Assembly (NCBI GenBank): GCA_003694635.1
Contig: RFKQ01000092.1
Span: forward strand, 1-47,926
Source: Planctomycetota bacterium
Lineage (GTDB): Bacteria > Planctomycetota > J132
Length of the DNA stretch: 47,926 bases
Reading direction: 5' to 3'
Shown here: positions 18,660 through 27,689 of the stretch, piece by piece
Numbering within the stretch: the stretch's first letter is position 1
Layout of the letters: each line of letters starts with the position of its first letter
The notes under the pieces: generated by a model
Told to the model about the DNA's origin: nothing
Database searches by the model: none
Seen by the model: only the letters and a program-made list of their open reading frames with translations
Made by a program: the position numbers and the translations under genes

Positions 18660-19898
18660 ATGCTAGCGGAAATTATCTCCACAGGCGCAGAACTCCTCAC
18701 CGGTGCCACCCTAGATACCAACGCCCATTACCTCGCCAAAGAACTCCAGCCCCTAGGCATCCAAGTCCAACGCATCACCACCATAGGCGATGAAGAAGAA
18801 GTCCTGAGAAAAGCTTTTCAAGAAGCTAGTCAACGCTCCAAGCTCTGCCTAGTCACGGGCGGACTTGGCCCCACAGACGACGATCGAAGCGCCCAAGCCG
18901 CCGCTCAAGCCGCCGGCACAGAACTGGAACCCAATCCCACAGCTCGTAAATACATGGAGGAATTCTTCCGCACCCTCTCGCGTCCACTCACCTCCACAGA
19001 TGCCAAACAAGCCCTCCTACCAAAAGGCGCAGAAGCTATCCCTAACCCCAAAGGCACAGCGGTAGGCTTCTCCCTCCAAATCCATCAATGCCACTTCTAC
19101 TTTATGCCCGGCGTCCCTCAAGAAATGAAGGCCATGTTCGAAAAATATGTCCTGCCCAAAATAAAAAACACCCTACAAACTCCCCACCATGGCCTTCAAA
19201 CCCTCACCCTCTTCGGCTGCCGTGAAGCAGAAGCCGCTGAAATCCTCAACGACTTCCCCCAACTCTTCCCCCAAATCCAACTCGGCTACCGAGTCCACTT
19301 CCCCCAAATCCAACTCAGGCTCTACTACCCCCCCAAAGCCAATTTACAAAATGCACTCGATTGGCTCAAACAAAAAGTAGGAAAGTGGATCGTCTCTTGG
19401 CAAGGACGCTTCCTAGAAGAAGAAGTCCCCCATCTACTCCAAAAATTGGGGCTGAAAATAGCCGTGGCGGAAAGCTGTACCGGCGGACTTGTCTCTGATC
19501 TTCTGACCAATTTTCCGGGAAGCTCCCAATTTTTCTTGGGCTCGGTGGTCGCCTACTCCAACTCCCTCAAACAACACCTCCTCAACGTCTGCCCACAAAC
19601 CCTTCAAAAATACGGAGCCGTCTCCCAAGAAGTAGCTACCCAAATGGCCAAAGGCATCCAAAAACATAGCCAAGCCGACCTAGGCCTCGCCACAACCGGT
19701 ATCGCCGGACCTAGCGGCGGCAGTGAACAAAAACCAGTAGGAACCATTTGCATCGCCATCGCCTACCAAAACCTTAGCCATAGCTGGCGCTTCTGTGTGG
19801 ATTTTCGCGAAAGAGAAAAAAATAAACTCTTCTTCGCCACAATGGCACTAGAGTCCCTGAGGCGCCATATCTGCAAAAAATATAACCTCAAAACCTAA
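18660..19898 (+). CDS. cinA: CinA-like nicotinamide-nucleotide amidase
   Basis: Two-domain CinA of 412 residues. The N-terminal MoaB/COG1058-like domain shows EIISTGAELLTG, LVTGGLGPTDDD, and FYFMPGVPQEMKAMFE. The C-terminal PncC domain (from about residue 255) shows AVAESCTGGLVSDLLTNFPGSS with the catalytic Ser, GSVVAYSNSLKQ, YGAVSQEVATQMAKG, and ATTGIAGPSGGS, followed by KPVGTICIAIA. PncC deamidates NMN to nicotinate mononucleotide and the N-terminal domain is linked to ADP-ribose pyrophosphatase activity, thus pyridine-nucleotide recycling. It lies 9 bases after the metallohydrolase gene and 14 before the voltage-sensor gene, in the nadC operon. Confidence 0.96.
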   Translation: MLAEIISTGAELLTGATLDTNAHYLAKELQPLGIQVQRITTIGDEEEVLRKAFQEASQRSKLCLVTGGLGPTDDDRSAQAAAQAAGTELEPNPTARKYMEEFFRTLSRPLTSTDAKQALLPKGAEAIPNPKGTAVGFSLQIHQCHFYFMPGVPQEMKAMFEKYVLPKIKNTLQTPHHGLQTLTLFGCREAEAAEILNDFPQLFPQIQLGYRVHFPQIQLRLYYPPKANLQNALDWLKQKVGKWIVSWQGRFLEEEVPHLLQKLGLKIAVAESCTGGLVSDLLTNFPGSSQFFLGSVVAYSNSLKQHLLNVCPQTLQKYGAVSQEVATQMAKGIQKHSQADLGLATTGIAGPSGGSEQKPVGTICIAIAYQNLSHSWRFCVDFREREKNKLFFATMALESLRRHICKKYNLKT

Positions 19899-19912: not shown

Positions 19913-22900
19913 ATGAGGGATACACGTTCCTATAGCCTAAAAGAAGTCCAACAAAAACTCCAACAACTTAAAGAAGAACTTGGAAAAATGGACCAACTAG
20001 ACCTAGCGCAGTGCTGGGAACGACTCCAACTGGCTATGTCCCTCGAAGCAGCGGCCCGCTACCAACAGGCAAATGAACTCCATCAAGAAGCCATTAGCCT
20101 AAGAACCCAAATCCGCCTAATCGTGGAAAGACAAGCGGAAAACGCAGATCCAGCCCTGGTCGACGAATTCTTAAACGAACGCCACGAAACCCTATTGCTC
20201 GAAATTCAAGAACAATCCGACGATATCCAAACGCAAATCAAAAACCTCTACCGAATACGCGATGAAATCCTATGGCTCATTCGACTATCCGAAAAACGTC
20301 AAGGTATCGTGCCCGAAAACCCTTTAACCTACATCGAAGAAGAATTGGAACGACTGGATGAGCAAATACGACAGCTGGAAAAACAACAATGGGACACCAA
20401 AACCGTAAAACTGGATAAAATTCACTGCGAAGAAGAACTTTTAACTGCACAAATAGAAGACCTAACCCGTATCGTGGAACAAAATCAAAATTACTCTCCC
20501 CAAGAATGGTTCCTAGTCTTCCAACGCTCCCACCACCTCCAGCGAAGCGCCAAATGGGCCCTAACAATGAATTGCCAACAAGAAAGATCCGCACAGAAAC
20601 TAAAAAATGCCTGCCAACTCCTAGAACAAAAACAAACTAAACTCCTAGAATACCTCCACCCCCAAAAAGAAGAATTTAAATCCCAATGCCTTGAGCTTTT
20701 CCTAGAATATGCCAATGGACTCAAAGTAAAAGTGGAAGAAATACCCCTACAAAAAGCCGTGGCAACCCTCCACTATTTCCAAAAAGAAATCCAAGAAGCC
20801 TACCACTTCCTCCCTCAAGATGAAAAAACAAAAGCTAAAAAATTAAAAAAACTAGAAAAATACGCCCGCACCGAAGCAATGGAAAAAGCTCTACAACATC
20901 GCCTAGAAAATATCTTTGGATACCGCTTCGTCAGCTTCTTTGAAAACCTTATCCTCTTCCTCATCCTAGCTGTCATCGCCCTCATGGTGGTGGAGGAAAC
21001 CGTGGACCTAACCCTCTCCCAACGCCTAACTCTAATGTGGACCGACGTGGGAATTTGCGCCATATTCCTCCTAGAATTTTTTACCAAACTTTTTTTGTCT
21101 AATAATAAATTCTTGTATTTTAAAAACCACTTTCTCTTTGACTTTCTGCCCTCCATCCCCTTCAGCCTCCTAACTTTGGCTGAAGCAGATGTCCTTCGAG
21201 CCGGCCGACTAGCCCGATTGGGCAGACTAACCCGAATGTTGCGCTACATACGCGTGGCACGCCCGTTTGTCCGATTATTTCGCCTCTTCCTGCTACTGGT
21301 GAGAATCCTAGACCGAGCTGTCAAACAATACTCCTCTCTTCTAAATAAAGAAATTGTCATCTTTAGCCAAAAACCCTTCCAACCTAAAGAAACAAAAAAC
21401 ACCCTCGAAAAACTCTTTCAACTCCAACAAACCACCAGTCGCCGCATCTGGCTAGCTCTACAAATTATCCCAGAAAAAGAAAAACTGGAAATTCTACAAT
21501 GGAGAATCCTCCGCCTACACCTCCTATTGGATAAAACCTCCCTTGGAGAAGGCAAATACCGTACCTTCCTAGACGATAAAATCACCAAAAATCAAGCAAT
21601 CCAAGAGGTCTCCTTAGAAAGCATTATCTACGAAATGACCCACATGGATGCCAATAAAGTACAAGAAATTCTGGGAAGACATGCCTGCCTAACCGCAGCT
21701 CGCTACCTAAAACTATTCAACGTTCCCATTGTCCGTAAACTCCCCCTAATTCGCAAAATCTGCCAAAATATGGAAAAACTAAATTCCTTCGAAATCACCG
21801 CCCAAACTGGAAGAGAAATCGGGCTGGCCCTGCAAAAAATCCTCGAAGCCATCTACTACCTAGCCGACTTTCACGGTATTGTAACCGCGCCTCAACTTTT
21901 AGATCGAGTAGGCAAAAGCTTCGTAAAAGCAACACAACGCCCAGCAATACGCCTAATCATTTTGGGAACCATCTTCTTCCTCCTACAAGGACTCGCCCAC
22001 CTAATCAAAATTCCCGCCCTTATCCACGCCACCAGCTTCCTAAGCCAAACCCTAGGTACTCCCATCATTATCCTAGGAATCCTCTGCGCCGTCCCCCTCG
22101 CCCTAGGCTACTGGTTTCTGGCAATCGCCGGGCAAGCCTCCTTCTTCTATGACCGCGTCGCAGAAGCCCAATACATCAACCTGCTAAAAGAACTCAAAAT
22201 AAAAAATTCTCAACGAGACCTAAATGTACTCTACAAAAGAGTCCTCCAAGGTGAAGAACTAGAACGAGATACCCTCTATAACAAAAATGATTTCTTCCAA
22301 CTAGTGGCCGAAAGCGCCAATATCCACACAAATAAAAAAAAATCTCATCACATATTCTGGGAAGAAGCCCAACGAATCACCCTCCTCTACCGAGATTACC
22401 TCGACGGTGCTACCCTCCATCACTCCGACGTGAAAACCTGTGAGCAACTCCTAGGAAACCTAACCATCGATGGAATCAAACGGTTTAAACTCAAATACAG
22501 TAAAAAAGAATTAAAACAACTGGAAAACCTAGATCTAAAAGAAAGTAAAAGAATTTTTGGCCCTTATATCTGGTTCCACTTTATCACCCACTCCCTCGCC
22601 CAACGCTCCGCAAGACTCCTAGTAGAATACAATCAAAACTGCTTCCCCCTCAGCGACCTCCCTCACCTAAGTCCCGAAGAAAAAACATCCATGCAAGCCT
22701 GGCTCGAAAGAAAAAAAAATCCTCAACCCCACCCCCCTACAACCAAAGAAATAAAACAAATTTCCAACCTCTACCGCACCACAGAATTCAATGCACTCTA
22801 CTTCCTAAGCAAAGATCCACAACGAGAAAAATATATCCAACAACAATTTGGACAAGATATCTATCACCTCCTCTGCCAAGATAGAAAAGCCATGTTCCGC

Positions 22901-23911
22901 GATATCTTCGGCTCCTATCCCCTCCATCATCTCCCCAAAAAATGGCGCGTCCTCAACCCCTTTCAACTGTACTCAGACTACTGCTCCCAGGGAAAAATTT
23001 TTCTCCTCCCCGTCTACTTTCTCTACCTCGGAAGCATTGCTCTAAAGTTGGCCATAAAAAAATTATTGCAAGCCATCCGGGATATTCTCCACCCCAACCT
23101 CACTCCCTTACACTTTGAAAAACTCCACAGCGGCTTCCATGTAGCCGTCAGAAAAATCAACCGAATGCGCAAACCTATCTACATGGAAATCCTAAAAATG
23201 CGAGCCCTCTTCGATCACGAATACCTCGCCATCCCTACCCCTACCTACCCCCTTCCGTTCGAAGAAAATATTGAAGATGATTTAAACTTCATCAGCGCCA
23301 CATTTGAAGAGCGACAATTCTTTGAACAACTCATCCAACAACGTGAAAAATCTATCCAACAACTCAAAACCTTTTTGGAAGAAGAAAAACTTCTCAACAA
23401 AGACCTAGAAAACTTCTTGCTCAACCTACCTAACGGAAGACAACTCGTTTCAAATAAATATCGCATCCTGCGAAATTTAACCATCGCCTACCTTATCAAT
23501 TCCAACCAACTCGCCACCCACTGCCACGAATACCTCACCGTCAAACACTTCTTCCTAGACTCCCTCCACAAACAAAACTCCCTAAAACCCACCCCTCCCC
23601 TCTTCGCCAGCCACAGAAAAAAACAACTCTTCGAAAATATCACCAACTGCCTATCCATCACCTTCCCCAAACAAACCCAAAAATACCAAACAATGCGAGC
23701 CTTCCTAAAAAACAAACAAATTCAACATGCCGCCCAAAATGTCCTAAAATTTAACGGCCTAAAAGGAATCCTAGAAACCATCCGACAAATTTGCCAACAC
23801 TGGCACATCTGGAACGAAGAACTCCTTACCCTGCGAACCCTCCAAACCCTCTCCGTAATGGATATCCAAAACTATAGAGAAATCGTTCACCAAATGGGGG
23901 AATATCCATAA
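19913..23911 (+). CDS. Giant membrane protein with a voltage-sensor domain
   Basis: 1332 residues; I do not recognise the family as a whole. Residues 1-335 are charged, Gln/Glu/Lys-rich coiled coil. Residues about 342-460 form a four-helix voltage-sensor: S1 (ENLILFLILAVIALMVV), S2 with acidic and basic residues (FLLEFFTKLF), S3 (NHFLFDFLPSIPF), and S4 at about 425-460, in which Arg recurs at every third position eight times (starting RAGRLARLGRLTRMLR). No S5-pore-S6 follows. Instead there are ~200 soluble residues, two more hydrophobic helices (about 678-700 and 714-740), another long soluble region, a further hydrophobic helix (about 1026-1050) and a helical C-terminus. It is the last gene after nadC and cinA. 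A voltage- or membrane-state-responsive protein is an inference. Confidence 0.65.
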   Translation: MRDTRSYSLKEVQQKLQQLKEELGKMDQLDLAQCWERLQLAMSLEAAARYQQANELHQEAISLRTQIRLIVERQAENADPALVDEFLNERHETLLLEIQEQSDDIQTQIKNLYRIRDEILWLIRLSEKRQGIVPENPLTYIEEELERLDEQIRQLEKQQWDTKTVKLDKIHCEEELLTAQIEDLTRIVEQNQNYSPQEWFLVFQRSHHLQRSAKWALTMNCQQERSAQKLKNACQLLEQKQTKLLEYLHPQKEEFKSQCLELFLEYANGLKVKVEEIPLQKAVATLHYFQKEIQEAYHFLPQDEKTKAKKLKKLEKYARTEAMEKALQHRLENIFGYRFVSFFENLILFLILAVIALMVVEETVDLTLSQRLTLMWTDVGICAIFLLEFFTKLFLSNNKFLYFKNHFLFDFLPSIPFSLLTLAEADVLRAGRLARLGRLTRMLRYIRVARPFVRLFRLFLLLVRILDRAVKQYSSLLNKEIVIFSQKPFQPKETKNTLEKLFQLQQTTSRRIWLALQIIPEKEKLEILQWRILRLHLLLDKTSLGEGKYRTFLDDKITKNQAIQEVSLESIIYEMTHMDANKVQEILGRHACLTAARYLKLFNVPIVRKLPLIRKICQNMEKLNSFEITAQTGREIGLALQKILEAIYYLADFHGIVTAPQLLDRVGKSFVKATQRPAIRLIILGTIFFLLQGLAHLIKIPALIHATSFLSQTLGTPIIILGILCAVPLALGYWFLAIAGQASFFYDRVAEAQYINLLKELKIKNSQRDLNVLYKRVLQGEELERDTLYNKNDFFQLVAESANIHTNKKKSHHIFWEEAQRITLLYRDYLDGATLHHSDVKTCEQLLGNLTIDGIKRFKLKYSKKELKQLENLDLKESKRIFGPYIWFHFITHSLAQRSARLLVEYNQNCFPLSDLPHLSPEEKTSMQAWLERKKNPQPHPPTTKEIKQISNLYRTTEFNALYFLSKDPQREKYIQQQFGQDIYHLLCQDRKAMFRDIFGSYPLHHLPKKWRVLNPFQLYSDYCSQGKIFLLPVYFLYLGSIALKLAIKKLLQAIRDILHPNLTPLHFEKLHSGFHVAVRKINRMRKPIYMEILKMRALFDHEYLAIPTPTYPLPFEENIEDDLNFISATFEERQFFEQLIQQREKSIQQLKTFLEEEKLLNKDLENFLLNLPNGRQLVSNKYRILRNLTIAYLINSNQLATHCHEYLTVKHFFLDSLHKQNSLKPTPPLFASHRKKQLFENITNCLSITFPKQTQKYQTMRAFLKNKQIQHAAQNVLKFNGLKGILETIRQICQHWHIWNEELLTLRTLQTLSVMDIQNYREIVHQMGEYP

Positions 23912-27206: not shown

Positions 27207-27653
27207 CTATTTACTCAAGCGAATATTGGTAATGGAGAGACGTTGACAGGTGATTTTCAAAAGCTCTAAAAGCATTTTGGCAGTGATCTTTGCCGATTTC
27301 TCCAGCAATTTCTGCATATGATCGGTGGTGATCGCATAAAGATACGTGTCCCGAACAGCCACAGCCTTGGCAGAACGCCTCGATTTTGTGGCAAAACTCC
27401 CCTCTCCAAAAACATCCCCCGGGCCCAAAATCGCCAAAACCTCCTCCAAACCCTCCCTATTCTCCAACAAAATCTCCACCTCCCCCGTCAAAATAATGTA
27501 GAGGGCCTCGCCCGGATCCCCCTTCAAAAATACACAATCCCCGCGATTGTAACGGTTGATCACCCCCTCATTCAAAAGAACACGAACCTCTCCTTCTTCA
27601 AAATTGGAGAAAAACTTGTTCTTTCTCGCTAAAATTGATGAATTTAACTCCAT
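27207..27653 (-). CDS. Stand-alone cyclic-nucleotide-binding domain protein
   Basis: A 149-residue protein made of a single cNMP-binding domain with no DNA-binding domain. The beta-barrel strands are seen in [20 protein letters not shown] and LTGEVEILL. The phosphate-binding cassette is [19 protein letters not shown], with both the Glu (FGE) and the Arg (RRSA) that contact a cyclic nucleotide, so binding of cAMP or cGMP is plausible. It ends in a helical tail. Such single-domain proteins act as sensor subunits; the partner is not known. An upstream start ten codons earlier was rejected because AAGGG sits at a proper distance from this ATG. It lies between glmM and glnS in an operon led by a c-di-AMP synthase. 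Confidence 0.85.
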
Positions 27654-27689
27654 CCTCTTCCCTTTCCAAAAAAATAAAGACAAAAAAAA

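Follow-up and report, generated by a model that had tools for sequence, protein, structure and literature searches.

The window analysed here is a 47,926-nucleotide stretch of DNA, the whole of contig RFKQ01000092.1 in the Planctomycetota bacterium assembly GCA_003694635.1. Its forward strand carries, at positions 19913-23911, an open reading frame of 1332 residues with an ATG start; an ORF check of the window bore out the original prediction on this point. The gene probably encodes a membrane-potential sensor (we put the probability at roughly 0.6), in which a voltage-sensor domain (VSD) of the prokaryotic K+-channel type is joined to a large helical effector, with no pore. The protein belongs to a previously unnamed, mainly planctomycete family, and as far as could be found its pairing of a pore-less VSD with a long helical region is unreported in bacteria. 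The original prediction had proposed a voltage-responsive or membrane-anchored protein of new architecture. That reading is supported by the model of the VSD and by the S4 residues and countercharges of homologues, the voltage response itself being predicted.

The voltage-sensor domain

Residues 341-466 almost certainly form a true S1-S4 VSD. Pfam Ion_trans matches residues 341-465 at 31.7 bits (E 1.1e-7; curated cut-off, 25 bits) and is covered only over positions 2-132 of its 241, the S1-S4 half of the profile; it was also matched in 14 of 16 homologues scanned. A profile built from the VSD alone retrieved the voltage sensors of Nav, NavMs, NaChBac-type and KvAP channels from the PDB, with E-values of 1.7e-6 to 1e-5. 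AlphaFold prediction of the VSD alone from 14 sequences reached a predicted local distance difference test score (pLDDT) of 80, around 90 in S1-S3 and 60-82 in S4. The S4 region is modelled as helices at residues 427-443 and 445-472, with pLDDT of about 60-82. In Foldseek searches with this model, the KvAP VSD led the list (probability 0.99, template modelling score up to 0.61), and the Nav1.7 VSD and NavAb chimeras were the other leading matches; the VSD of Ci-VSP stood lower (0.59-0.60). Structure prediction, a check suggested at the outset, yields a bundle of helices S1-S4 whose leading structural matches are solved VSDs.

The residues expected of a voltage sensor are in place. Hydrophobic peaks fall at residues 342-360, 372-390 and 448-466, the last being the tail of S4, and S3 and S4 are less hydrophobic than the other VSD helices, as is usual in VSDs. 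S4 carries eight arginines at exact +3 spacing (R429, 432, 435, 438, 441, 444, 447 and 450) and, beyond this ladder, R454, R457, R464 and R468. When the segment was shuffled, a run of eight arose at a frequency of 2.5e-5; shuffling the full protein 2000 times gave none. S2 reads F385-x-x-E388-x-x-x-K392 and S3 bears D410. All the elements first noticed in this region (four helices, an S4 with arginine at every third residue at least eight times, an acidic and basic S2 and an S3 aspartate) are thus present.

Conservation was counted in an alignment of 54 homologues (53 at some columns). The S2 acid and the S3 acid are kept in 54/54 and the S2 base in 52/54; the S2 charge-transfer centre as a whole comprises F/L385 (54/54), E/D388 (54/54) and K/R392 (52/54). 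Among the S4 arginines, Arg435 is retained in 48/53 members, Arg438 in 50/54, Arg444 in 46/53 and Arg457 in 54/54, and 31 of the 54 have at least six consecutive basic residues at +3 spacing. Most homologues, then, retain the S4 arginines and nearly all retain their countercharges, as a search for relatives had been meant to establish.

20933..21001, + strand: S1 (residues 341-363), with acidic E361 at its outer end (E/D in 51/54)
21026..21103, + strand: S2 (residues 372-397), with D378 in 54/54 and C382 in 52/54
21122..21184, + strand: S3 (residues 404-424), with H406 in 45/54, D/E410 in 54/54, P413 in 53/54 and P416 in 54/54
21191..21310, + strand: S4 (residues 427-466), with eight arginines at exact +3 spacing, then R454, R457 (54/54) and R464

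Absence of a pore and the origin of the module

The roughly 870 residues after S4 contain no S5-P-S6: no match to Ion_trans_2 or another pore family, no filter motif and no pore fold was found in them, and the K+ filter motif occurs in 0 of 54 members. Two planctomycete channels, at loci L021 and L030, served as positive controls and matched Ion_trans through the pore half as well as Ion_trans_2. The early claim that no canonical pore is present is accordingly backed by Pfam, PDB-profile and motif searches that do recognise planctomycete channels.

One of these controls bears on where the VSD came from. L030:1156-2385 (+) encodes a 410-residue K+-channel-like protein with six transmembrane (TM) helices, a full pore and an unusual filter, TTVVTGGFGD (TGGFGD), in a genome that also encodes a full-length family member. 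Its VSD bears the family-specific S2, S3 and post-S4 motifs. A VSD tree separates it from 15 other planctomycete channels and joins it to the 54 family members with 97/94 support, either as their sister or nested among them. A search of the phylum returned no other close full-length relative of this channel. Since one VSD type sits both on a pore and on a large effector, the VSD is a swappable module; this speaks for a sensor that works and for modules having been exchanged, in one direction or the other.

Regions flanking the voltage sensor

The region that takes the place of a pore is a long helical part without a characterised relative. Outside the VSD, no relative was found in Pfam, NCBIfam, PADLOC or the PDB, and PDB searches with the TM5-TM6 region and with residues 740-1332 likewise gave none. 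A large model of the protein (pLDDT 69; predicted template modelling score 0.56) is helical throughout and had no confident PDB match other than the KvAP VSD. In this model TM5 and TM6 form a helical hairpin whose turn is very short and lacks a pore (P) loop, and pLDDT blocks in the C-terminal domain are mostly 83-94. TM5-TM6 as a pore was dropped as unsupported, given the short turn, the missing P loop and the lack of a PDB pore match.

19913..20902, + strand: N-terminal charged, probably helical region (residues 1-330), variable in length and sequence
21311..21364, + strand: post-S4 element (residues 467-484), family consensus RGxDRLVRRYxxLLNRxIVFF
21383..21940, + strand: first cytoplasmic helical domain (residues 491-676), with D652-x-x-G655 kept in 54/54
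21941..22012, + strand: TM5 (residues 677-700)
22040..22132, + strand: TM6 (residues 710-740), Gly-rich and strongly conserved, with G722 in 54/54 and W734 in 52/54
22133..22996, + strand: second cytoplasmic helical domain (residues 741-1028), with no known relative
22997..23086, + strand: amphipathic or monotopic helix (residues 1029-1058)
23120..23908, + strand: C-terminal all-helical domain (residues 1070-1332), with an RKINRMRKP motif and no known fold match

The N-terminal region had been described as a coiled coil of about 335 residues. It is charged and probably helical, but the heptad pattern is local rather than full-length: 3.5-residue periodicity exceeds that of shuffled sequences only at about residues 85-140 and 183-252. 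The region is among the least conserved, with a mean of 1.37 bits per column against 2.2-2.6 in the VSD, and its ratio of nonsynonymous to synonymous substitution rates (dN/dS) reaches 0.53. Three further hydrophobic helices had also been proposed, and peaks after the VSD are indeed seen at residues 682-700, 718-736 and 1029-1047; the third, however, is amphipathic and sub-threshold in several homologues. Conserved blocks of the second cytoplasmic domain include YRDYLDGxxLHxSDxKT..QLLGN and FGTYPLH. Full-length homologues conserve the hairpin of TM5 and TM6 together with two or three helical domains in the cytoplasm.

Proposed mechanism and alternative explanations

The protein probably responds to voltage. 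In the mechanism we favour, a change in membrane potential would move S4 past the charge-transfer centre of S2 and S3. S4 and the post-S4 segment (RGxDRLVRRYxxLLN), as one uninterrupted basic helix, would then pass the movement on to the helices in the cytoplasm and to the Gly-rich hairpin of TM5 and TM6, and these may in turn serve as scaffold or regulator for partner proteins. The post-S4 element, partly common to the six-TM channel at L030, is the proposed coupler between S4 and effector, and oligomerisation may be the role of the N-terminal helical region. The searches revealed no enzyme signature in the window protein, which makes a regulatory or scaffolding output likelier than catalysis; such an output is favoured here, its precise nature being a guess.

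Several observations weigh against this reading. Foldseek gave the VSD model weak E-values, the best being 0.14; the leading matches are still VSDs, and the weight consequently rests on their identity and on the sequence evidence. The large model is merely moderate, and S4 within it has low confidence. The longest S4 run at +3 spacing ranges from 1 to 8 across members, and members with short runs cluster at about four points of the tree. In one short-run clade the ladder is merely interrupted, whereas in L039, L092, L121 and L041 it is truly eroded, with a longest run of 1-2, so voltage sensing would not be kept by all members. Finally, no conserved operon partner points to the output. The four members with an eroded S4 retain the S2 and S3 countercharges.

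It is unlikely, though worth weighing, that the VSD is kept as a mere membrane anchor or anionic-lipid-binding module, whose Arg-rich S4 and post-S4 segments bind phospholipid head groups without responding to voltage. The variable number of S4 arginines and their erosion in several lineages fit such a role, as do the very basic post-S4 helix, which is among the more conserved parts, and a TM5-TM6 hairpin conserved at least as much as S4. An anchor, however, has no need of the S2 acid and base and the S3 acid, which are required for charge transfer and kept in 52-54 of 54 members. Nor does anchoring sit well with ladders of six or more basic residues in 31 members, or with a related VSD mounted on the K+-channel-like pore of L030.

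A non-canonical channel is quite improbable. Either the VSD would have to gate, across the 200-residue cytoplasmic insert, a pore made by oligomerised TM5 and TM6, or protons would have to pass through the VSD itself. The order of the six TM helices, VSD plus two, does resemble that of six-TM channels, TM6 is highly conserved and rich in glycine, and MscS-type channels are encoded beside the gene in three loci. Real planctomycete channels, however, match through the pore, whereas this protein matches neither Ion_trans_2 nor a PDB pore; the hairpin turn is short and lacks a P loop, and the K+ filter motif is missing from all 54 members. Proton conduction is disfavoured by V354, which was matched by hand to the S1 aspartate of Hv1 (Asp112) and is a hydrophobic residue in 54/54 members.

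An assembly or gene-fusion artefact, in which a channel gene was wrongly joined to an unrelated gene, might be suspected in a fragmented draft genome (158 contigs, 67% complete) but is already refuted by the homologues: the same architecture recurs in more than 50 independent genomes of many families, including the single-contig genome of Candidatus Uabimicrobium amorphum, and dN/dS is well below 1.

Distribution and selection

Homologues, mostly of 1200-1500 residues, are encoded by 56 of the 392 Planctomycetota genomes sampled, counting matches stronger than E 1e-30 in the phylum-search table. Weaker matches in the phylum that cover the VSD only are mostly ordinary channels. Carriers include a Brocadiia metagenome-assembled genome and Candidatus Uabimicrobium amorphum, a cell-engulfing bacterium that has been isolated and whose 9.5 Mb genome holds an intact member. 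A homologue was also present in all five sampled genomes of another small phylum (loci include L124-L127; genomes G392, G393, G395 and G396). That phylum, to which G393 belongs, is represented by five genomes with no overlap with the Planctomycetota set, and the titles of two of them name Deltaproteobacteria; the family protein may be near-universal there. No relatives were found among viral contigs or among plasmids.

Close pairs within the family show signs of purifying selection. Core dN/dS was 0.12-0.23 in four of five scorable close pairs and 0.42 in the fifth (L043/L110), and S4 dN/dS was 0.07-0.11 in three close pairs. The best-conserved parts include S3, TM6 and the cytoplasmic blocks at residues 820-905 and 955-1030.

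Genomic context

The gene is present in a single copy in its source genome. Directly upstream lie nadC, a metallo-β-lactamase (MBL) fold gene and cinA, all co-directional, with an overlap of 14 bp followed by gaps of 9 and 14 bp.

18660..19898, + strand: cinA-like gene, 14 bp upstream of the family gene

Convergent downstream genes encode a pyridoxal-phosphate enzyme, a tRNA synthetase, a cyclic-nucleotide (cNMP)-binding protein, a glmM-like product (449 residues), ybbR and cdaA (DAC); two of these labels, tRNA synthetase and glmM, come from our own reading of the sequence. The cyclic-nucleotide-binding-domain protein (27207-27683, - strand; PF00027, E 4e-23) lies among the cdaA-ybbR-glmM-like genes and is a possible link between two nucleotide signals.

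The original prediction had placed the gene at the end of a nicotinamide adenine dinucleotide (NAD)-salvage operon (nadC, MBL, cinA) and opposite a cyclic di-AMP operon. Those neighbours are there, but a functional link mostly fails, the contexts being mostly unconserved. Among 47 adjacent co-directional genes, Pfam revealed no dominant family, and a fixed operon partner was rejected when all-against-all clustering and Pfam gave small groups only. Recurring neighbours were MscS-type channels in three loci (L032, L040 and L045), type II secretion system ATPases in three (one clade) and cinA in two besides the window, the two being the distant relatives L116 and L118, where cinA is again directly upstream. 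Given the sample of 47 genes, they should be taken as leads and no more. The MscS-type genes adjoin the family gene in all three loci, and the upstream copies in L040 and L045 abut or overlap it; the window protein itself has no MS_channel match to suggest MscS or MscK. Across window positions 1-47926, GC skew is very strong, with an absolute value of 0.3-0.49 over most of the contig. It changes sign at two places, around 11 kb and around 40 kb, and does not track gene strand; the cause could be a misjoin, an inversion or a replication boundary.

Relation to known voltage sensors and significance

Pore-less VSDs are known in eukaryotes, in Hv1, VSP, TMEM266 and SLC9C1. With prokaryotic six-TM voltage-gated K+ channels (KvAP-type VSD; L030) the window protein shares the S1-S4 fold, the charge-transfer centre and the +3 arginine ladder, but it has about 870 residues of helical domains and a TM hairpin in place of S5-P-S6. 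Ci-VSP and TPTE likewise join a pore-less VSD of similar fold to a cytoplasmic effector. The window protein differs from them in being bacterial, in its TM hairpin and large N-terminal region, and in lacking a phosphatase domain: none was matched by Pfam in the 16 members scanned, and HCx5R occurs in 2/54, at scattered positions. Identity as a VSP is ruled out by the absence of this domain and of a conserved Cx5R site. Hv1 and TMEM266 also combine a pore-free VSD with a helical region that may serve oligomerisation, whereas the window protein is 1332 residues long with a long helical C-terminus. The Hv1-type S4 motif RxWR occurs in 2/54 members only and is absent from the window protein; this and the hydrophobic residue paired with the S1 Asp rule out Hv1 identity. 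The sperm Na+/H+ exchanger SLC9C1 couples a VSD to a non-channel membrane protein (PMC13095418), but no exchanger or cyclic-nucleotide-binding domain was found in the window protein.

According to a 2023 review that drew on database searches, every prokaryotic voltage sensor known at the time was joined to a pore for K+, Na+ or Ca2+, and prokaryotes had no known Hv1-type channel (PMC10377628). In the open-access literature (subscription papers and preprints lay outside our scope), no report of this family, or of a pore-less voltage sensor from planctomycetes or other bacteria, was found.

The family is thus a widespread exception to the rule that prokaryotic VSDs are attached to pores, and shows one VSD type naturally put to use both with a pore and with an effector that is not a pore. 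Tentatively, and at slightly less than even odds, it could constitute a new class of bacterial membrane-potential receptor, in which a pore-less VSD acts through a unique TM hairpin and helical cytoplasmic domain on partner proteins, and which arose by swapping modules with planctomycete K+ channels; these bacteria would then have direct voltage-to-protein signalling. Members with a full and with an eroded S4 allow direct comparison. If it does sense voltage, we know of no earlier case of a pore-less voltage sensor in bacteria, and bacterial electrical signalling would gain a direct protein output.

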